Under the pieces are notes generated by a model, which saw nothing but the letters and a program-made list of their open reading frames with translations, was not told the origin of the DNA and made no database searches. DNA of 64,000 nucleotides from positions 1-64,000 of the forward strand of contig JAVKGX010000009.1 in assembly GCA_031432545.1 (NCBI GenBank), read 5' to 3'. Position numbers and translations under genes: made by a program. Below are positions 8,650 to 58,403 of this stretch, piece by piece. How positions within the stretch are numbered: position 1 is the stretch's first letter; every line of letters starts with the position of its first letter. Source of the DNA: Armatimonadota bacterium. Lineage in GTDB: Bacteria > Sysuimicrobiota > Sysuimicrobiia > Sysuimicrobiales > Sysuimicrobiaceae.

Positions 8650-10845
8650 ATGCGTCTGACCCTTCGCCAGGTCAACTTACTTCTGCTCGGCGTCGTGGTC
8701 CTAAGTGCTCTGGTCCTGACCTGGGGCACCGTGGAGACGTATCGCCACCTCCCGCCGCTGCCCGAACTCTTCACCACCGGTGACGAAACGGTGCTGTTCA
8801 GGCGCGAAGACATCCGCGCCGGCCAGCGGGTCTTCCAGCGCCGCAACCTAATGGGTTTCGGGACGCTGTTCGGCAACGGCAGCTACTTCAGGCCGGATTT
8901 CGGGGCAGAGTACTTAGCATTCTTGCGGGATCACGTCGCGGATCAGTTCGCCCGAGAACAAGTGGGATGACCGTTCCGCGACCTTTCGCCGGGCGATCCT
9001 CCACATAGCACGAGTGGGCACCAACCAGGTCTCCCTGCCCGACGAGTGGAGCGAGGCGCACCAGGCCTTCGCGGAGTTCTATCATCGGCGCTTCGTGGCG
9101 GGCGATCGGGCGCTGGGGATTGCCCCGGGGACCCTCCAACCCGACGAGGTCCGGCCTCTCGCTGCGTTTGTGGCATGGACGGCGTGGGTATCCTTCACCG
9201 CCCGCCCGGGATCTGACGGCTCGTACACCAACAACTTCCCGCCCATGCCGGATCTCGGTCTGGTCCCCACCGGGCAGACCATCCTGTGGACTGCGTGGTC
9301 CGTGGGATGGTTCCTGCTCCTGGCATTCTTGGTGGTCCTGGCCTTCGGAGCGGTGGATCTGGAACCCATCCCCGTACTTCCGTCCGTCGAGGAGCGGGCG
9401 GAGGGTTCGCCCGGTTTTCTGGCCCGGGTGACGCTGCTGCTGATGGGCGGCTGTTTTTTCATCTTTGCTCCTCCAGACGTTGGCAGGCGGTTATCTTGCG
9501 AACGCCTACGCCTCGCGTGAGGACTTCTACGGGGTGTTCTCGGGGTTGGGCCTCGAGCGCATGGCAGTCCTTCCCTTCCAAGCCGTCCGGTCAGCGCACA
9601 CCGCGATGGCCGTGGTCTGGGTGGTGGGTCTGTGGATGTCCGCAGCCCTGTACGCGGCTCTCCTGTTGGGCGGACGGGAGCGCCCGTGGCACAAGCCGGC
9701 CGCCTACGTGTCCATCGCGATCCTCGCTGTGAGCGTGGTCGGCACGCTGCTGGGTGTGTACGCCAGCGTCCGCGGGTGGGTGGACTCGCCGCTGGTGGGC
9801 AGCGAGGGGACGGAGTACCTGAAGATGGGGCGGCTGTGGCGGGCGGGCATCGCGGCGGGCTTCACCTTGTGGGTGGTGGTCCTCGCCTCTACCCTGAGGG
9901 GCGCTGAGGTGCGCTGGCGGCCACTGTTGCAGGTCCTGCTGTGGAACGGAGCCGGCATCACCGCGGCGCTCTATGCCAGCTTCGCCTACGGCCCGATAGC
10001 CACTGGGTGGTGGTGGACTTCTGGCGGTGGTGGGTGGTCCACCACTGGGTCGAAGGGATTTTCGCCTTTTCCAGATCCTCGTGTTCGGGTGGTTCTTCGC
10101 GGGACTGGGACTGGTAAGCCGCGAGGACGTGACAAAGAGCCTGTACCTGGAAGGCGGCCTGGTCCTCCTCGCGGGCTTTTTGGCCATCGGCCACCACTTC
10201 TGGTGGGTCAGCCAGCCGCCGCTGCGGCTGGGGGTGGGTAGCGTCTTCAGCACCCTGGAGGTGCTCCCGCTGTTCCTCCTGCTGAGCACTGCCCTGCGGG
10301 CGGGTCGCCGTGGCGTACACGTACGTCCCTCGCTTCGTTGGCCGTTGTGGTTCTTCGTGGCCAGTGCCATCTGGCAGTTTTTGGGTTCGGGGATCCTCGG
10401 GCTGCTGATCAACCTCCCCGTGGTGAACTGCTATGAGCACGGCACCTTCCTGACCGTCGCGCACGGCCACGCCTCATTCCTCGGCGCGTTCGGCTTCGTG
10501 GCCGTGGGCATGGGACTCTATGCGGTGCGGCACGCATGTCCCGACGGCTGGAGTGACCGCAGGGTGGCCGCGGCGTTCTGGGCTCTCAATGTGGGGCTGT
10601 TCCTCATGGTCTTTCTTAGCGTGACGCCGCTAGGGGTCATGCAACTCTCCGAGGCGGTACGTGTCGACTATGCGGCGGCCCGCAGCCTGCAGTTCTACCA
10701 GCGGCCCGAGGCACTGCTCCTCAACAAGTTACGGCTTCCAGGCGATGCCCTGATCATCGTCGGGGCGGCAGCCTTGGTCGCTGAGATACTCCCCAAGCTG
10801 CTCCGAATCCTCGACTTGCTCAAGCCGGCTCGAAGGAGCTCCTAG
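8650..10845 (+). pseudogene. Quinol-dependent nitric oxide reductase (qNOR), four frameshifts
   Basis: Read across frames, this is a full-length qNOR (about 730 residues, NorB/NorZ type) that would reduce NO to N2O in the membrane using quinol. It has the extra N-terminal quinol-enzyme segment with YTNNFPP, then the heme-copper-family core: HHWVEG, GHHFWW and HGHASFLG supply the FeB and heme ligands and the FeB glutamate. The frame is broken near 8959 (+1), 9465 (+1), 9992 (-1) and 10063 (-1, in a T run). No stop lies between shifts in the correct frames. Each break is a single base and the rest of the window is intact, so recent decay is likelier than assembly error, though the latter is possible. 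The final frame ends at TAG 10845. Confidence 0.85.
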
Positions 10846-50886: not shown

Positions 50887-51450
50887 CTAGGGACTCTGTC
50901 TGCCCAGGCGCTTCAGGTACTCGACCAGCGCCCACACCTGCTCGTCGGAAAGTGCCGCGAACGCCGGCATCCCGCTCCGGCGGGGTGTGGTGCCCAGACC
51001 GTGCCGGATGACCCAGTGGCTGACCCCGCGGGGGGTTTCCAGGAACGCGGGGCTGTGGAAGCTCATCGGCGGCGGGTTGAGCGTCGCGCCGGCCGGGCCG
51101 TCGCCGCGTCCGGTCGGACCGTGGCAGACGGCGCACAGCGCCCGGTACTGACTCTCCGCGTCTGCGAGCATCGCCTCGGTGATCTCTGTGGGCGGCTCAT
51201 CGTCGCGCGCGTCCGCCGGCACCACCTCGACGATCGCGCGCATCTGATCCGCGTGCGGATCCTCCGCCACACCCGGCGCCCTCGAGACGCCCGGAATCTG
51301 GCGGGCAACGGGGCTGACCTCCGGCGCCACGAGTCCGCCGGCCACGAACAGGTACGCCGCCGCCCACACCGGCAGCAGGACGTACAGCACCAGCAGACCG
51401 CGCGGTGGGCGGTGGCCGGAAGGTTGCGTAGGAGGCGTGGGTTCTGCCAT
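50887..51450 (-). CDS. Membrane-anchored mono-heme cytochrome c
   Basis: 187 residues. One N-terminal membrane helix (about 18-40), a linker, then a class I cytochrome c with heme site CAVCH and axial Met in SGMPAF. Electron carrier or oxidase-type subunit in the periplasm. Possibly takes the CcoP role. Six nt after the CcoO-like gene. Confidence 0.9.
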   Translation of the reverse strand: MAEPTPPTQPSGHRPPRGLLVLYVLLPVWAAAYLFVAGGLVAPEVSPVARQIPGVSRAPGVAEDPHADQMRAIVEVVPADARDDEPPTEITEAMLADAESQYRALCAVCHGPTGRGDGPAGATLNPPPMSFHSPAFLETPRGVSHWVIRHGLGTTPRRSGMPAFAALSDEQVWALVEYLKRLGRQSP

Positions 51451-51456
51451 GTCAGT

Positions 51457-51924
51457 TCACTTCAGACTCAACAGGTAGGCCGCCAGCACGCGCAGTTCTT
51501 CGTCCGAGAGGTGCGCGTAGGACGGCATTCGCGACCCAGGCGTTCGCTCGGAGGGAGCGCGCAGCAGCGCGATGATCTCCTGGGCCCCCTCGATGCGCGC
51601 GCCCACCCGCAGCAGGTCCGGCCCCACGCGCCGCCCGCCCAGCAGGGCGGGGGTCTGTCCGGCGTAGGCGGCGAAGTCCGCCGCCTGTCCGATGTCGCCG
51701 GGTTCGGCGATCATCCCGAACCTCGACTCGATCGTGCGCACCTGCTGGGTGTGGCAGACCATGCAGTTCTCCCGCACGTAGACGGCCCTGCCGGCTTCCT
51801 GCTCCCGAGTCAGGGCGGGCCCCGGAGCGGCCGGTCCGACGGAGGGCAGGGCGACCGTGGCCACAAACCCGCTGACCGTGGCCACCACGGCGAACAGCAC
51901 GATCGGGCGGACGCTCAGCTGCAC
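51457..51924 (-). CDS. CcoO-like mono-heme cytochrome c
   Basis: 155 residues. One membrane helix, then GRAVYVRENCMVCHTQQVRTIESRFG, the typical FixO/CcoO heme site, PDLLRVGARIEG and RMPSYAHLSDEEL with the axial Met. In cbb3 oxidases CcoO binds CcoN. Here the CcoN-like neighbour lacks metal ligands, so the pair may carry electrons elsewhere. Confidence 0.88.
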   Translation of the reverse strand: MQLSVRPIVLFAVVATVSGFVATVALPSVGPAAPGPALTREQEAGRAVYVRENCMVCHTQQVRTIESRFGMIAEPGDIGQAADFAAYAGQTPALLGGRRVGPDLLRVGARIEGAQEIIALLRAPSERTPGSRMPSYAHLSDEELRVLAAYLLSLK

Positions 51925-51946: not shown

Positions 51947-53362
51947 TCATGTACCCGCCTCCCCCACCAGCCTCGCCTGCGCCGGCGGGGACAGGTCGCG
52001 CTCGGCAGCCGACGCCGGTTCGCCGGAATCCACGGTCAAAAAGACGTTCCAGGCGAACAGTGCCTGCCCGGTGAGGAGCAGACCGGCCGAGACCGCGTAC
52101 ACGACGAGAAACGGCGAGACCGCCGCGGCTCCGTGGGCGAAGGGTACGGTGCCCGTCGCCCACACCGCTCCCTGACTCAGTCCGGCGAAAAGCAGCGTCA
52201 ACCCGCCGACCGCCCACCCCGCCACCGTCGATCCCACCTGCCACCACGCCAGGGTGCGACTCGCCAGCGCCCGGCCGACGAGGGAGGGCAGCATCGCGTA
52301 CGCCGCCCCCACGGCGATCGAGAGAATCCCGCCGAGCCACAACAACCGTTGACCCTCGACCCACAGCGTCAGGTTCACCACCCGACTGGGGCCCAAGAGG
52401 CCGTGGACCGCACCGACCGACGCTGAGCCGGCCAGCGCGAACGCCCCCACGGTGAACAGCATCAGCGTCGGGCTGGCGCAGGCGGCCGTCCACCTGCCCC
52501 CCACCGTCGTCCACACCACCACGAGCAACGTCGCGGCGGGCAGGACCAGCAGCAGCGACGCGACAGCCCCGACGGTCTGCGTCCAGAACGGAACCGGCCC
52601 CCACACGAACGCGGCGGGCCCGGCGAGCGGGGCGAACGCGAGGATGCCCAGCAGCGCCGCGGCCGGCAGCGCGGCCGCGAAGACCGCGCGGCCCGCGGCC
52701 ACGGGGACCAAGGCCACCAGGACACCGCCGGACAATATGCCCAGCCACAGCCAGTTCAGACCCGACTGCAAGAACGCCTGCGCCAGCGCGTCCGGCACAC
52801 CGGCGTACGGATTGGCAAACGGCGAGAACAGACCCTTTCCGAGCAACAGCACCAGCGGGAAGGCCACCAGTGCGCTGGCGAAGTACCAGGCCGGCGGCTC
52901 CACGGCCGCCGCGCTCACCGTCCGCCACACCACCCACAGCAGCAGCAACCCGGCCACCACCCGCAGCAGGTCGGCCGGCCACGGCGCCTCGCCGAACGCG
53001 CGCCCGCGGGTCCAGCCCACGGTCAGGTACCACCACGCGAGCACCTGCGCGACGGTCCACAGCCAGAAAGCGAGGTTGGCGGTCCTCTCCCCCCACAGGT
53101 GTCCGCGCGCGGACTGGGGCGCCAGCCTCAGGACCGCGGCGATCAGCAGGTGCGAGCAGGCACCGAAGATCCACACGTCGCGGCTGACCGCGACCAGCCG
53201 ACCGTGGGACGACCAGGCACTGCCCGCCAAAAAGCCCGGCCAGGCCAGCTGCGCGGCGATCAACAGTTCGTAGATTGCGCCCACCAACGCCCAGGCCGTG
53301 CCGAGGTAGGCGAACCGGCGGGCGGCGCTCCACTGTTCGTCGCTCAACATCCACGCGAGCAA
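51947..53362 (-). CDS. CcoN-like (heme-copper oxidase subunit I-like) protein lacking metal ligands
   Basis: 471 residues, about 12 membrane helices. It aligns by eye with CcoN: GRLVAVSRDVWIFG against the segment with the first low-spin heme His (here S60), PYAGVPDALAQAF, VPVAAGRAVF, and LWVEGQRLLWLGG followed by MLPSLVGR against the segment with the two heme-ligand His (here Q338, L340). The only histidines are 53, 71, 88, 320 and 410. None falls in 89-319, where the CuB ligands should be. It therefore cannot hold the heme b/b3-CuB centre as known. Perhaps a structural or quinone-binding subunit. Confidence 0.75.
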   Translation of the reverse strand: MLAWMLSDEQWSAARRFAYLGTAWALVGAIYELLIAAQLAWPGFLAGSAWSSHGRLVAVSRDVWIFGACSHLLIAAVLRLAPQSARGHLWGERTANLAFWLWTVAQVLAWWYLTVGWTRGRAFGEAPWPADLLRVVAGLLLLWVVWRTVSAAAVEPPAWYFASALVAFPLVLLLGKGLFSPFANPYAGVPDALAQAFLQSGLNWLWLGILSGGVLVALVPVAAGRAVFAAALPAAALLGILAFAPLAGPAAFVWGPVPFWTQTVGAVASLLLVLPAATLLVVVWTTVGGRWTAACASPTLMLFTVGAFALAGSASVGAVHGLLGPSRVVNLTLWVEGQRLLWLGGILSIAVGAAYAMLPSLVGRALASRTLAWWQVGSTVAGWAVGGLTLLFAGLSQGAVWATGTVPFAHGAAAVSPFLVVYAVSAGLLLTGQALFAWNVFLTVDSGEPASAAERDLSPPAQARLVGEAGT

Positions 53363-53421: not shown

Positions 53422-53541
53422 TCATGCCTCCGCGACCAGACCGAAGGCGGCCACGAACAGCAGCAGCGCGAAGAACAGCAGGTAGAAGACTGCGTACCAG
53501 ATATAGGACTTCAGCTTCCGGGGCCCGAACCGCCCGATCAC
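53422..53541 (-). CDS. 39-residue single-helix membrane protein
   Basis: GTG start overlapping the TGA of the MvhD-like gene (GTGA, 53538-53541). FGPRKLKSYIWYAVFYLLFFALLLF and an acidic end: basic membrane-proximal part then one helix. Looks like a small accessory subunit of the electron-transfer complex. Family not recognised. Confidence 0.6.
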   Translation of the reverse strand: MIGRFGPRKLKSYIWYAVFYLLFFALLLFVAAFGLVAEA

Positions 53542-53981
53542 TTCTTCTCCTCCGCCCAGATCCGCAGGACCTCCTCCCGGAACGACCGCACCGCGTCGAT
53601 GAACTCCCTGCGGTCGTGCAGTCCGTAGGCCAAGAACCCGATGCGCGCGGGGTTCACCTTCTGCCGCTGCAACCGCTTGCGCAGCGCCTCGATGCGATCC
53701 TCGATGATCCAGTTGCCCTCGCGGTTCAGACAGTCGCCCATCGGGCACCCGCACACGAACGTACCGGCAGCGCCGCTGCGAAGTGCCAGCTCCAGCCACG
53801 CCGGCTTGACGAAGCCCGAGCAAGGCACGCGGATGAGCACGACGTCCGGGAGGGTGACCATGGTGCCGTCCGGGTTCAGCAGGCCTTCGCTGCTGACCGC
53901 CCAGTCGCACAGGAACCCGACCACGCGGCCGGCCGGTTGGCTCTTGGACTTGTCCTGCACCACAGGCTCGACGCTGTCCAT
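53538..53981 (-). CDS. MvhD/FrhD-type [2Fe-2S] subunit
   Basis: 147 residues from the ATG at 53981. Five cysteines (25, 54, 77, 79, 84) in the pattern of the hydrogenase/heterodisulfide-reductase delta subunit: FLCDW, PCSG, CGCPMGDC, then NREGN. MvhD links a hydrogenase or formate dehydrogenase to HdrA. No HdrABC or hydrogenase is in the window; here it sits behind a cytochrome b-ferredoxin fusion. Confidence 0.88.
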   Translation of the reverse strand: MDSVEPVVQDKSKSQPAGRVVGFLCDWAVSSEGLLNPDGTMVTLPDVVLIRVPCSGFVKPAWLELALRSGAAGTFVCGCPMGDCLNREGNWIIEDRIEALRKRLQRQKVNPARIGFLAYGLHDRREFIDAVRSFREEVLRIWAEEKK

Positions 53982-53988
53982 CCTCACC

Positions 53989-55164
53989 TCACGCCGTGAC
54001 CGCCGCCCCGGCGCCGGCACGGATCTGTGCCTGCACGTCCCGTTCGAGCAGGCGCGGCAGCTCCAGCGCCTCGAAGGGACAAGCGCCGATGCAGATCCCG
54101 CACTCCACGCAGCGCGGATCCACGACCACGGCCAGCAGCTTGCGGTTCGCCGCGGCCTTGCTCTTGCCCGGGTACGGGCTGGGCACCATGTAGATCGCGT
54201 TGTACGGACAGTCGAAGTAGCACAGCTCGCAGCCGGTGCAGTTCTCGTCGACGACCACCGCCTGTCCCAACCCGCGCAGCCCGCGCTCTTGGGGCGTCTC
54301 GCGCAGGGAATACGGGATGTACATTCCGTACGCCACGAGCGCGGCGACCAGCGCGAGCGCCCACCCCGGCGCGATCCATCGCGCCAGCACGTAGGGCCAC
54401 AGGTAGAACCAGTCGACCTCGAAGCCTTCGGGCGTCGCCCCCGGCTGCGCCGGCGGCCCGCTCGCCGCGGGAATCGCTGCGGCCAGCACGAAGATCAACC
54501 CGATCCCGAACAAGACCCACAGCGCCGGCGGCCAGACCTTCGGGTGGCGCAGCCGCACGTAGTGCCACCACAGGAGGATGTACAGCGTCATCGCCGGCGC
54601 GATGTGCAGGAAGAGGAACCGCACGATCGTCGCATCGCTCAGCCCCGGTCCACCCAAAAACGCGTGCGCCAGCCAGCCGCCGATCAGCGGTACGCTCTGC
54701 AGTGCCTGCACCGTCATGCTCGTCAGCAACTGGGAGCGCTGATCCCACACCAGCAGATATCCGGTAACGCCCGCGATGCCCGAGAACACCAGCAGCACCA
54801 TCCCCGACAACCACTGGCTGTCGCGCGCTTCGCGGTAGCGGTCCGTAAACCAGTTCCGGAACAGGTGCAACAACACGGCCACGATGTACGCGTCGGCTGC
54901 GTACCGGTGGATGCCGCGGAAAATTACCCCGTAGGGCACCTGGTCCGAGAGGAACTGCACCGAGGCGTACGCGCCTTCCAGGCTGGGCTCGTAGTACAGC
55001 CAAATCAGGATCCCGGAGACGACCAGGACGGTCAGGAACAGGTTGCTCAGCCCGCCCGTATAGTACAGGGGGTTGAAGTCCTGCGGGTATACGCGGTTGA
55101 TCGCCACGTCCACTTTGAGCGTGGCGCTCTGGATCCTCTGCAGCAGCGGCCGGTACACCGTCAC
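53989..55164 (-). CDS. Cytochrome b fused to a 2x[4Fe-4S] ferredoxin
   Basis: 391 residues, GTG start overlapping the previous stop. N-terminal cytochrome b6-type four-helix part with both heme pairs: H86/H100 and H187/H201. Then a subunit-IV-like piece with VDWFYLWPY in place of PEWY and a further helix. The C-terminal 85 residues are a ferredoxin with C309, C312, C315, C319 and C352, C355, C358, C362. A cytochrome b wired to iron-sulfur clusters suggests electron exchange between quinone and a soluble low-potential donor. Confidence 0.92.
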   Translation of the reverse strand: MTVYRPLLQRIQSATLKVDVAINRVYPQDFNPLYYTGGLSNLFLTVLVVSGILIWLYYEPSLEGAYASVQFLSDQVPYGVIFRGIHRYAADAYIVAVLLHLFRNWFTDRYREARDSQWLSGMVLLVFSGIAGVTGYLLVWDQRSQLLTSMTVQALQSVPLIGGWLAHAFLGGPGLSDATIVRFLFLHIAPAMTLYILLWWHYVRLRHPKVWPPALWVLFGIGLIFVLAAAIPAASGPPAQPGATPEGFEVDWFYLWPYVLARWIAPGWALALVAALVAYGMYIPYSLRETPQERGLRGLGQAVVVDENCTGCELCYFDCPYNAIYMVPSPYPGKSKAAANRKLLAVVVDPRCVECGICIGACPFEALELPRLLERDVQAQIRAGAGAAVTA

Positions 55165-55361
55165 TCCTCGGCCGTGATGTGTGCCTTCCGGAACAGCAGC
55201 ACGACGAACGAGTAGATGATGAGCAGCACGCCCAGCGCGCCGGCGCCGACCCGGCGGTGGTCGAACCACTCGCCGTAGACGATCAGTGCCACGCACAGCA
55301 GCGCCGCCATCGCCAGCAGGACGATGAGCGCCATGTACACGACCGCGCGTGAGCGTTCCAC
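55161..55361 (-). CDS. Small two-helix membrane protein
   Basis: 66 residues; ends by overlapping the following GTG start (GTGA). Two hydrophobic helices with a GEWFDHRR loop. Conserved-looking small accessory subunit of the complex; family not recognised. Confidence 0.7.
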   Translation of the reverse strand: MERSRAVVYMALIVLLAMAALLCVALIVYGEWFDHRRVGAGALGVLLIIYSFVVLLFRKAHITAEE

Positions 55362-55364
55362 GGC

Positions 55365-55613
55365 CTATGACCCTCTACCCAGGAATCTCTCGTACAGTCG
55401 CAGGCGGCGGCGCAACTTCCCAGCAGCCCGATCCGTTGCGTAGATCAAGAAGCCCGCGTACAGGAACGCCCCGACGAGCAGCGCGGTCCACCCGACTGCC
55501 GCGGCCCACGCGACCGCGGTCTGCACCGCCACCGCCTCACTGTAGGCGCCGAACACCTGCTTGAACGCCACGACCGCGGCTGCAAACGCCATGACGAACA
55601 TCACGCCGCGCAC
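55365..55613 (-). CDS. Small membrane protein
   Basis: 82 residues, two hydrophobic helices and a basic C-terminal tail (RRRLRLYERFLGR). 3 nt before the 55.2-kb gene and 4 nt after the cytochrome b gene, so it is part of the same transcript. Family not recognised. Confidence 0.7.
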   Translation of the reverse strand: MRGVMFVMAFAAAVVAFKQVFGAYSEAVAVQTAVAWAAAVGWTALLVGAFLYAGFLIYATDRAAGKLRRRLRLYERFLGRGS

Positions 55614-55617
55614 CGCC

Positions 55618-56772
55618 CTACCCTGCCGTCGGCGCCGGCCGCGCCCCCACCACGCGGGGCGGCGGCTTCGGCGCCGCCGCTTCTGCCGCCCGCCGGCGGC
55701 GCCGGTACCGCAACTCGAGCAGCAATCCGATCACGAGCACCACGCTGGTCATCACCAGGACGATGTGCGGATCCCGGTCGATGACTGCGATGTTGAACAT
55801 GATCAGCGTTGTGAACACCACGAAGTACGTGAGGGCCATGACGCCGACCACCGTGAAGAAGGGGCGTTCGGACGGTCGGCGGCCCTTGCTGCGGTCGAGG
55901 AACGGGACGAGCATCCCGTAGGTGATGAGGAATCCCGGCCCCAGTCCGGCCCACAGCGGCGGGGTGTACTTCACGTACTGGTACAGCGCCAAGAAGTACC
56001 AGTCCGACAGGATCGGCAGCGGCGTCCGGTTCGGGTCGGCGCGCCGGCCCATCTCGGCGGGGAAGATGTAGCTGGTGGCGACGATCATCAGCAGCAAGAC
56101 GACGATCGCCGTCGGCGAGAGCCCGAAGCGCTTGCGCCGAGTGAAGATGAAGTACAGTTCTACGGCGATCAGCAACAACGCGGAGATCCCGAAATGGATC
56201 GCGTAAAAACGCGTCAGCGCCCCCTGCCCGACCGCCGGGCCGCCGAGGAAGATGAAGGCGATCGCGCTGCCGAACTTGCTCGCACCGATGATCGGAATTT
56301 GGTCTAGGTAGACCGCGACGCTGAGCACGGTCTTGGCTGCCCAGAACGCGCGCTGGTTCCAGATCAGCAGATAGCCCGTGATCCCGGAGATCATCGCCAG
56401 CACAAGGGACGCGAACAGGATCATCCACGTCAACTCGTTCGGGCGCTTGTACTCGCCGAGGAAGTACATGCGGTAGATCCGCAGCATGATCGCGAGGATC
56501 AGCATATCTGCGGCGTACTTGTGGGCGCCCCGGATCAACCAGCCCAAAGGCACCTCATGCTGGATGCGCAGGATGGAGTTGTACGCGCCGTGGGTCGTCG
56601 GCTCGTACCAGATCATCAGCAAAACACCCGTGACGAAGACCACGATCCAGGAGAAGTAGACGATGTGGCCCAGCGCGTACAGCGGGTTGTCCAGCCGGTC
56701 GACGTTGGTCTCGTCGAAGAGGTCGAGCTTCTCCTTGCGCTCGCGCAGCCACTCCCGTACGCGGTCGAGCAT
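55618..56772 (-). CDS. Cytochrome b (Rieske/cyt b complex) lacking second heme-ligand pair
   Basis: 384 residues from the ATG at 56772. About eight or nine membrane helices; a cytochrome b6-type part fused to a subunit-IV-like part with SDWY at the PEWY position. Heme ligands H84 and H193 (the bL pair, p-side) are present. The bH partners, 14 residues further in each helix, are R98 and Y207. By this reading it carries one heme. The companion cytochrome b at 54 kb keeps all four ligands. Confidence 0.9.
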   Translation of the reverse strand: MLDRVREWLRERKEKLDLFDETNVDRLDNPLYALGHIVYFSWIVVFVTGVLLMIWYEPTTHGAYNSILRIQHEVPLGWLIRGAHKYAADMLILAIMLRIYRMYFLGEYKRPNELTWMILFASLVLAMISGITGYLLIWNQRAFWAAKTVLSVAVYLDQIPIIGASKFGSAIAFIFLGGPAVGQGALTRFYAIHFGISALLLIAVELYFIFTRRKRFGLSPTAIVVLLLMIVATSYIFPAEMGRRADPNRTPLPILSDWYFLALYQYVKYTPPLWAGLGPGFLITYGMLVPFLDRSKGRRPSERPFFTVVGVMALTYFVVFTTLIMFNIAVIDRDPHIVLVMTSVVLVIGLLLELRYRRRRRAAEAAAPKPPPRVVGARPAPTAG

Positions 56773-56869: not shown

Positions 56870-57526
56870 TCATGCGATCCCTCCGGGCTCGGCGCTCGTG
56901 ATCACGATAACGCCGTCGCGGATCTCGTAGGTGAAGTAGTACGGCGGCCGTGGCGCCGGGCCGGAGAGGACCCGTCCCGGTCGGTCGCGGTCCGCGGGGT
57001 CGTAGATTGACAGGTGGCAGGGGCACGCCATCAGCCCGTGGCGCCGCTCCTCCGGCGGGACGTACCCTCCGTAGCCCGCGGTGACCTCCCGCCAGTTGGG
57101 CACGTAGTTGAAGATGCAGCCCAGGTGCGGACAGATCCGGGAGAAGATGACGATGTCGGTGGGTTCTTCGCCCTGCTTGAACCCGGGGAAGCTGACCTTC
57201 CACGGCAGCCTGATGGCCACGCCGGGGATCGTCGCCACGCGCGCCTGCTCGGGCGTGTACTGCGCGTAGCGCTGCGTGTACACGAAGATTCGCGACGACC
57301 ACGGTTCGGCGAGCTCCTCCACGCGTCCCAACGCCAGCTGCTCCCCCTGCGGGAGATCCATCTCCGCGAGACTGCGCAGCCGACCTTCCGGCAGCCCCAG
57401 CCCGGGGTCGAGGTTCGGCTTGAGATAGCGCAGTAACGGCGCCGCGAATGCCGCCAGCGCACCGAGCACGGGGATCGCGCTTAGCGCGCGCAGGAACGTG
57501 CGGCGGTTCACTCCCCTCTCGGCCAT
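56870..57526 (-). CDS. Rieske [2Fe-2S] protein
   Basis: 218 residues. Twin-arginine signal NRRTFLRAL followed by a membrane helix. Cluster ligands CPHLGC (132-137) and CPCH (168-171). An extra about 30-residue loop between the two. Quinol-oxidising subunit partnered with the cytochrome b next door. Export probably uses the Tat system. Confidence 0.95.
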   Translation of the reverse strand: MAERGVNRRTFLRALSAIPVLGALAAFAAPLLRYLKPNLDPGLGLPEGRLRSLAEMDLPQGEQLALGRVEELAEPWSSRIFVYTQRYAQYTPEQARVATIPGVAIRLPWKVSFPGFKQGEEPTDIVIFSRICPHLGCIFNYVPNWREVTAGYGGYVPPEERRHGLMACPCHLSIYDPADRDRPGRVLSGPAPRPPYYFTYEIRDGVIVITSAEPGGIA

Positions 57527-57542: not shown

Positions 57543-58403
57543 TCACCGCAGGTCTTCGGGAAGCGTGTAGACGAACGTCCACAGATAATCTACCACAGCC
57601 CAGATCTGGTCCGACGTCAGGCGATCTCCGTACGCAGGCATCAGCTCGATGCCACGGCGGTGCACGCCTTCGAACACCCGCTGGTAGAGCTCCGTCGGTT
57701 TGCGGTAGGCCATCCAGTCGCGGTCGGTGAAGATCCCGGGGCCCACGCCGCGACCCCACGTCCAGATCTCCTGGCGGATGCGAGCGGCCTCCGGACCGTT
57801 GCCGTCGCCGGATTCACCGTGGCAGGCGGCACACTGTTGCTGGTAGATGCGCCGACCCTCGGCGAGTTTGTCGCGCGTGGTCATGCGGCTCCACTCCCAG
57901 AACAGGACGTTCCAGATCTCTTGCTCGCTCAGCGGAGGGTCGGCGAGGCTGTCGGCGCCGTAGGCGGGGTGGCGGAAGCCCGGCATCGCGGTGTGCGGCC
58001 GACCGCGGTCGATCACCTCGAACATGGAAAAGGGCGTGTTGAGTCGCATCTGGTCGAGGTTGTCGAAGCGCGCAGGCCGGCTGGGAAGCGGTTCGCCCCT
58101 GGGGTGGATCCGGAAGATGCGCAGCACGTCCCGGTACGGGTCCTTCTCCGGGGCCACCAGCTGCGGCGCCATCGGTCCGTCGCCCCGGCCCTCGGGCCCG
58201 TGGCAGACGGCACAGCGCGCCTCGTAGACCCGCTTGCCTCCGTCGGCGTTGGGCTTTTGGGGAATGAAGTTCATCCGGTGGACGTAGCCGGCCAGCGGTT
58301 CGTAGGCGGGACGGTCGGGCGACCCGATCCGCACGTATGGCTGGCAGCCCACGAGCAACACCGACGTCGCCGCGATCAGCGCGGCGCCGGCAACTGGCCG
58401 CAT
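57543..58403 (-). CDS. Diheme cytochrome c lipoprotein
   Basis: 286 residues from the ATG at 58403. A lipobox VLLVGC, then two class I cytochrome c domains with CAVCH and CAACH, axial Met in AMPGF and LMPAYG. Electron acceptor of the Rieske/cytochrome b complex by position (17 nt before the Rieske gene). Confidence 0.9.
   Translation of the reverse strand: MRPVAGAALIAATSVLLVGCQPYVRIGSPDRPAYEPLAGYVHRMNFIPQKPNADGGKRVYEARCAVCHGPEGRGDGPMAPQLVAPEKDPYRDVLRIFRIHPRGEPLPSRPARFDNLDQMRLNTPFSMFEVIDRGRPHTAMPGFRHPAYGADSLADPPLSEQEIWNVLFWEWSRMTTRDKLAEGRRIYQQQCAACHGESGDGNGPEAARIRQEIWTWGRGVGPGIFTDRDWMAYRKPTELYQRVFEGVHRRGIELMPAYGDRLTSDQIWAVVDYLWTFVYTLPEDLR

Follow-up and report, generated by a model that had tools for sequence, protein, structure and literature searches.

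Cytochrome b-ferredoxin and MvhD genes in a Rieske/cytochrome b cluster of Sysuimicrobiota: a tentative asymmetric complex

MvhD is an electron-input subunit of Hdr-Mvh complexes, in which it is placed ahead of the FAD chain of HdrA. In a 64,000-nucleotide stretch of a Sysuimicrobiota genome (contig JAVKGX010000009.1; hereafter, the window), an MvhD gene follows a gene encoding a membrane cytochrome b fused to a ferredoxin domain. A sequence-only reading suggested that the two genes could be a module linking quinone to a soluble, Hdr-like iron-sulfur partner. The locus raises the question of what an MvhD protein does beside a cytochrome b, with which proteins the pair works, and in which direction electrons pass through it.

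The gene pair and its cluster

The cytb-Fd gene (53989..55158, minus strand) has a GTG start and encodes a protein of 389 residues, composed of a cytochrome b (Pfam Cytochrome_B, E=2.8e-30) and a C-terminal 2x[4Fe-4S] domain (Fer4-type domains). The histidine ligands form two pairs (His84/His98 and His185/His199), each spaced 14 residues apart, and the cluster cysteines (307/310/313/317 and 350/353/356/360) form two CxxCxxCxxxC motifs. An alignment of 11 sequences from three phyla shows no variation at any of the four histidines or eight cysteines. A PEWY-type motif is represented in the alignment only by a variable equivalent. Hydropathy profiles predict about six helices, which would place the Fd domain on the N-terminal side of the membrane, cytoplasmic by the cytochrome b convention.

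MvhD (53538..53981, minus strand; 147 residues) is separated from cytb-Fd by 7 bases. The protein matches the Pfam FlpD family (E=1e-22; 81 bits versus a curated cut-off of 22.3) and aligns to the solved MvhD 5odc_D (E=5.7e-14). Four cysteines, at positions 25, 54, 79 and 84, are invariant in the alignment and could bind one [2Fe-2S] cluster. Both genes have a third-codon GC of about 0.91, the value expected for real genes of this genome, and both are conserved well above the chance level. Pfam matches, motifs, the alignment to the solved MvhD and conservation bear out the earlier description of a cytochrome b fused to 2x[4Fe-4S] and followed by MvhD.

The pair forms the latter half of a longer Rieske/cytochrome b cluster, in which the genes are ordered cytc-Rieske-cytb1-tmA-tmB-cytb-Fd-MvhD on the same (minus) strand. 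The first gene (57543..58403) encodes a diheme cytochrome c (Cytochrome_CBB3, 4.4e-23) featuring CxxCH motifs at residues 64 and 191 and a lipoprotein-like N-terminus. This protein is likely the electron acceptor of the Rieske [2Fe-2S] protein encoded next (56870..57526; TIGR01416, 5.7e-9); both genes are syntenic in the phylum. The Rieske protein carries the motifs CPHLGC and CPCH, and its CPCHLSIYD sequence keeps the serine and tyrosine residues whose role is to raise the redox potential (PMC12954380). An unusually long insertion separates the two motifs, as is also observed in the Rieske protein of locus L129, from another phylum. The second cytochrome b, cytb1 (55618..56772; Cytochrome_B, 1.4e-32; Cytochrom_B_C, 2.2e-7), was aligned to b6. 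It is followed by two small membrane proteins identified by synteny and hydropathy, tmA (55365..55613) and the two-helix tmB (55161..55361).

Additional genes of the same strand are found downstream of MvhD. The tmC gene (53422..53541), which was recognised by tblastn and hydropathy, encodes a 39-residue, single-helix protein and overlaps the MvhD stop codon; tmC matches 3' of MvhD were obtained by tblastn in most loci. Next are genes for a CcoN-like protein (51947..53362; COX1, 5.1e-24; ccoN, 3.3e-31), a CcoO-like membrane-anchored monoheme cytochrome c (51457..51924; FixO, 1.1e-19; one CxxCH) and another membrane-anchored monoheme cytochrome c (50887..51450; Cytochrome_CBB3, 2e-11; CAVCH). 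A polyprenyl synthase gene is also located downstream. The CcoN-like protein is kept in the window's own family at about 50% identity. In alignments, neither this protein nor its own-family members have the heme and CuB histidine ligands, which are present in the L129 CcoN. We rejected cbb3-oxidase activity for this gene because the ligands are gone; the product is perhaps a structural or accessory subunit of the complex, a metal-free relative of oxidase subunit I. Elsewhere in the window (9450-10692, plus strand), matches to a COX1-family gene, NorB-like by eye, are split over two reading frames, a gene either broken by frameshifts or affected by sequencing errors.

The cytb1 and cytb-Fd genes are the sole cytochrome b genes of the genome (2.19 Mb, rated 100% complete). 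The pair is not a free-standing module; Rieske, cytb1 and cytochrome c genes share its cluster.

In cytochromes b, the first histidines of helices B and D bind heme bL, on the P side, according to the established numbering. When aligned to the solved b6, cytb1 keeps the bL ligands (His84 and His193) but features Arg98 (helix B) and Tyr207 (helix D) instead of histidine at the bH positions. Among cytb1 proteins, the helix D position is occupied by Tyr, Phe, Leu, Met or Trp. Glu205, two residues upstream of this position, is invariant in nearly all of them, and the Qo-side motif LSDWYFLALYQ, with its LSDWY core, is invariant. The cysteine of b6 that serves heme cn (NIFYCLGG position) is replaced by alanine. 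In a ligand survey of cytochrome b ORFs, the H-R-H-x pattern was found in 37 rows, every one a cytb1 of this cluster type, and four histidines in 90 rows, cytb-Fd among them; some rows derive from overlapping regions of one genome, and the few other patterns reflect misalignment or b6-type spacing. Arg-type cytochromes b are monophyletic in the tree (15/15, support 0.973). The window cytb-Fd groups with fused proteins of other phyla, described below, and not with cytb1.

The Hdr question and the distribution of the cluster

The sequence-only reading had noted that no HdrA is present, and this holds across the whole genome, in which, apart from small ferredoxin domains, the HdrA2 model NF040770 matches only the Fd-MvhD stretch of the operon. 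The matches of the Fd domain and of MvhD cover positions 572-640 and 641-775 of the model, in this order, corresponding to the C-terminal part of HdrA2. No HdrB was found either. The single CCG protein of the genome (476 residues) was rejected as a candidate, as it resembles the glycolate oxidase subunit GlcF and is encoded beside a GlcE-like ORF. The FlpD gene of the operon is the sole one in the genome, and a second MvhD is lacking. Because the genome has no HdrA, this MvhD does not belong to an Hdr complex. Of the link proposed earlier, a low-potential iron-sulfur chain connected to quinone is still the best reading, while the Hdr-like partner is not supported, as neither HdrA nor an HdrB-like gene was found. 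The genome carries complex I genes, including NuoF and its neighbours.

The sample analysed includes 386 bacterial genomes, 43 from the phylum and 343 from outside it. Operon-type MvhD was detected at E<1e-20 in 37 of the 43 phylum genomes and is absent from G004, G008-G011 and G019. Five of these (G004 and G008-G011; loci L056, L057 and L062-L065) carry other MvhDs, and those read adjoin Hdr-type genes, perhaps reflecting a division of the two MvhD uses by lifestyle. Where relatives encode a second MvhD, its gene is flanked by HdrA and MvhG-like genes or adjoins other genes of Hdr type. An MvhD that goes with HdrA, envisaged earlier as evidence against the module, hence exists in relatives, as a separate paralogue, and the operon-type MvhD stays with cytb-Fd.

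The cytb-Fd gene is followed by MvhD in all the loci read from other genomes (23/23), and the order cytc-Rieske-cytb1-cytb-Fd-MvhD is intact, across families, wherever the contig is long enough. The CcoN/CcoO/cytc1 insertion is restricted to the window's own family, G042 and G012. A scan with very specific peptide patterns, which returned only phylum-like loci, added relatives such as Bacterium HR32, ANGP1 and MAGs labelled 'Armatimonadetes', all of which we take to be members of CSP1-3/Sysuimicrobiota. In the description of this phylum (PMC11604079), 109 genomes are reported to encode sqr, and autotrophy is attributed to three of five families; the main text does not contain the words cytochrome, Rieske or complex III. 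Plasmids searched with MvhD gave no match, and those searched with cytb1 gave only ordinary cytochromes b, at roughly <30% identity.

Outside the phylum, the best 60 MvhD regions were read, and a cytochrome b was found at the MvhD in two of them. In G151 (L129), which belongs to another phylum, genes for CcoN, cytochromes c, Rieske, cytb1, cytb-Fd and MvhD are present, and cytb1 shows the same Arg/Glu/Tyr pattern. Two further genomes of that phylum, G386 (L228) and G387 (L227), carry an Arg-type cytb1, cytb-Fd and MvhD; a Rieske protein was not detected by genome search in either (92% and 82% complete, respectively). The MvhD proteins of these two loci feature a long acidic N-terminal extension.

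In the second region, G212 (L133), cytochrome b, 2[4Fe-4S] and FlpD are encoded in a single open frame, as identified by Pfam. A search with the cytb-Fd alignment revealed such fusions in eight genomes of the G212 phylum and in eleven of other families, although the MvhD domain is weaker in many of them. The fused proteins (L133, L229-L236 and L261-L272, from several phyla) have no Rieske or cytb1 alongside, and in most of the loci read, neighbouring genes were identified by eye as CoxI/CoxII and SCO-like. The fused proteins are often followed by a conserved extra domain. No description of this fused family was found in the literature searched. Fusion in one polypeptide in other phyla indicates that MvhD belongs to this cytochrome b.

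A possible route for the low-potential electron

Judging from the genes, cytb1 and cytb-Fd-MvhD very probably sit in the same complex, and a cytb1/cytb-Fd heterodimer probably replaces the usual homodimer. A homodimer of cytb1 would strand the electron at bL, because the protein has no bH and hence no route to Qi. Our preferred interpretation, to which we give slightly less than an even chance, is an asymmetric Rieske/cytochrome b complex, whose low-potential branch would terminate, at the cytoplasmic face, in Fd-MvhD. A net export of electrons to a soluble acceptor would be nearly, but not quite, as probable as its opposite. The strictest form, in which quinol oxidation (Qo, no bH) is confined to one half and the other serves only to take up the low-potential electron and pass it through its [4Fe-4S] clusters and MvhD to a soluble cytoplasmic carrier, providing reductant from menaquinol without flavin-based bifurcation, is conceivable but doubtful.

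In the asymmetric complex, menaquinol would be oxidised at the Qo site of cytb1. The first electron would pass to the Rieske protein and then to cytochrome c; the second would reach bL of cytb1, where the onward step to bH would be blocked, and would cross to bL of cytb-Fd. An electron step between bL hemes is known in bc1. In cytb-Fd, the electron would move from bL to bH, through the two [4Fe-4S] clusters and to MvhD on the cytoplasmic side; the transfer from bH to [4Fe-4S] and MvhD is plausible because the cytb-Fd C-terminus shares the cytoplasmic side with bH. MvhD might then reduce a putative soluble acceptor, such as a ferredoxin or a flavoprotein; none is encoded near the cluster. The low-potential branch would supply reductant instead of, or besides, quinone reduction at Qi.

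Energetic arguments come from anammox complexes, the Rieske proteins of which have potentials of +303 and +335 mV; such high potentials have been argued to imply a very low bL potential, sufficient for NAD(P)H formation (PMC12954380). In the same report, feeding NADH into quinone via such a complex was argued to be a waste of energy, given complex I. Complex I with NuoF is present here as well, and NADH thus already has an energy-conserving route into the quinone pool. The presence of sqr and autotrophy in the phylum (PMC11604079) makes a need for quinol-made reductant plausible. Rieske-driven bifurcation does not explain G386 and G387, in which cytb1, cytb-Fd and MvhD are found and no Rieske protein was detected. 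Moreover, the fused homologues, which lack cytb1 and a neighbouring Rieske, indicate that the Fd-MvhD arm can do without bifurcation.

In the opposite direction of flow, electrons would enter through MvhD. A cytoplasmic low-potential donor, either ferredoxin or a flavoenzyme docked on MvhD, would reduce MvhD, the [4Fe-4S] clusters, bH of cytb-Fd and finally quinone at Qi, leaving Rieske/cytb1 to act as a quinol oxidase towards cytochrome c. A comparable entry of electrons from ferredoxin into the b6f complex has been proposed for cyclic flow. Homology to the MvhD that has an input role in Hdr-Mvh is consistent with this direction, and the Rieske-less fused proteins encoded beside heme-copper oxidase genes would fit a stand-alone quinone reductase. 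Electron entry, however, leaves the loss of bH in cytb1 unexplained, and bypassing complex I would waste energy if the donor were NADH, an objection that does not extend to a ferredoxin donor. On balance, we regard entry as a rather unlikely alternative to the asymmetric, exporting complex.

Less probable still is that the operon encodes two separate machines, i.e., a short oxidoreductase without Q cycling, composed of cytb1, Rieske and cytochrome c, and an independent oxidoreductase, cytb-Fd-MvhD, acting between quinone and a soluble partner. The latter does stand alone elsewhere, as a fusion. Nevertheless, wherever sampled loci are long enough, the R-type cytb1 never occurs without cytb-Fd, and the gene order is kept in two phyla; furthermore, in a homodimer of bH-less cytb1, bL would have no outlet and bifurcation at Qo would stall. 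A conventional Q cycle within an asymmetric dimer, with cytb-Fd reducing quinone at Qi and Fd-MvhD serving as a redox sensor or as a docking or stability element, agrees with the conservation of both heme sites in cytb-Fd but is very improbable, given that the eight [4Fe-4S] and four MvhD cysteines are invariant, as for electron carriers, and that fusion keeps the domain order across phyla.

If the asymmetric complex is real, it would amount to a complex III naturally wired in one direction, in which the loss of bH from one half leaves electrons no path but the one across the dimer, into a half that ends in a cytoplasmic iron-sulfur chain. Inter-monomer bL-bL transfer has long been debated for bc1, and the complex would provide a clean test of it. 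It would also let menaquinol serve as a source of low-potential reductant, needed by autotrophs living on sulfide or nitrite, and would allow the anammox idea, in which quinol drives the production of reductant, to be tested in an independent system. No description of the complex was found in the literature searched; an earlier one may exist.

Comparison with known systems

The cluster shares with bc1 and b6f complexes a Rieske protein with the canonical CxHxxC...CxCH motifs, a cytochrome b with a PEWY-type Qo motif (LSDWY in cytb1) and a c-type cytochrome acceptor, and both cytb1 and cytb-Fd align to the solved b6 over four helices. However, bc1 and b6f are built on a homodimer with four histidines per cytochrome b, whereas the cluster encodes two different cytochromes b, with H-R-H-(F/Y/L/M/W) ligands in cytb1 and HHHH in cytb-Fd. 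The attached ferredoxin domain and MvhD, the diheme cytochrome c and the small extra membrane subunits are additional differences.

The Fd domain and MvhD resemble HdrABC-MvhD/HdrA2 systems in the order in which they match the C-terminal part of HdrA2. In contrast to these systems, the HdrA flavin domain and HdrB are missing, and a membrane cytochrome b takes the place of HdrA. The fused cytochrome b-2[4Fe-4S]-MvhD proteins (e.g., L133, L229, L231 and L261) have the same domains, in the same order, and the same four histidines. They differ in being single polypeptides with no Rieske or cytb1 alongside, mostly flanked by CoxI/CoxII/SCO-like genes, whereas the window features separate genes.

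The anammox complexes of Kuenenia (Kuste4569-4574 and Kustd1480-1485; PMC12954380) provide the nearest functional analogy, and the cluster may operate in a similar way. They also combine a Rieske/cytochrome b core with iron-sulfur clusters on the cytoplasmic side, and their low-potential branch has been proposed to make reductant. In those complexes, an FAD/NAD(P) oxidoreductase is attached, the cytochrome b core has been modelled as a homodimer, and an extra heme has been proposed (PMC12954380). In contrast, no FAD/NAD(P) oxidoreductase gene is found in the cluster, either in the window or in L129, or between the syntenic genes of relatives; the chain ends in MvhD, and one cytochrome b lacks bH. 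By the composition of its genes, the cluster is a Rieske/cytochrome b system that departs from the canonical four-histidine pattern, and not an Hdr system.
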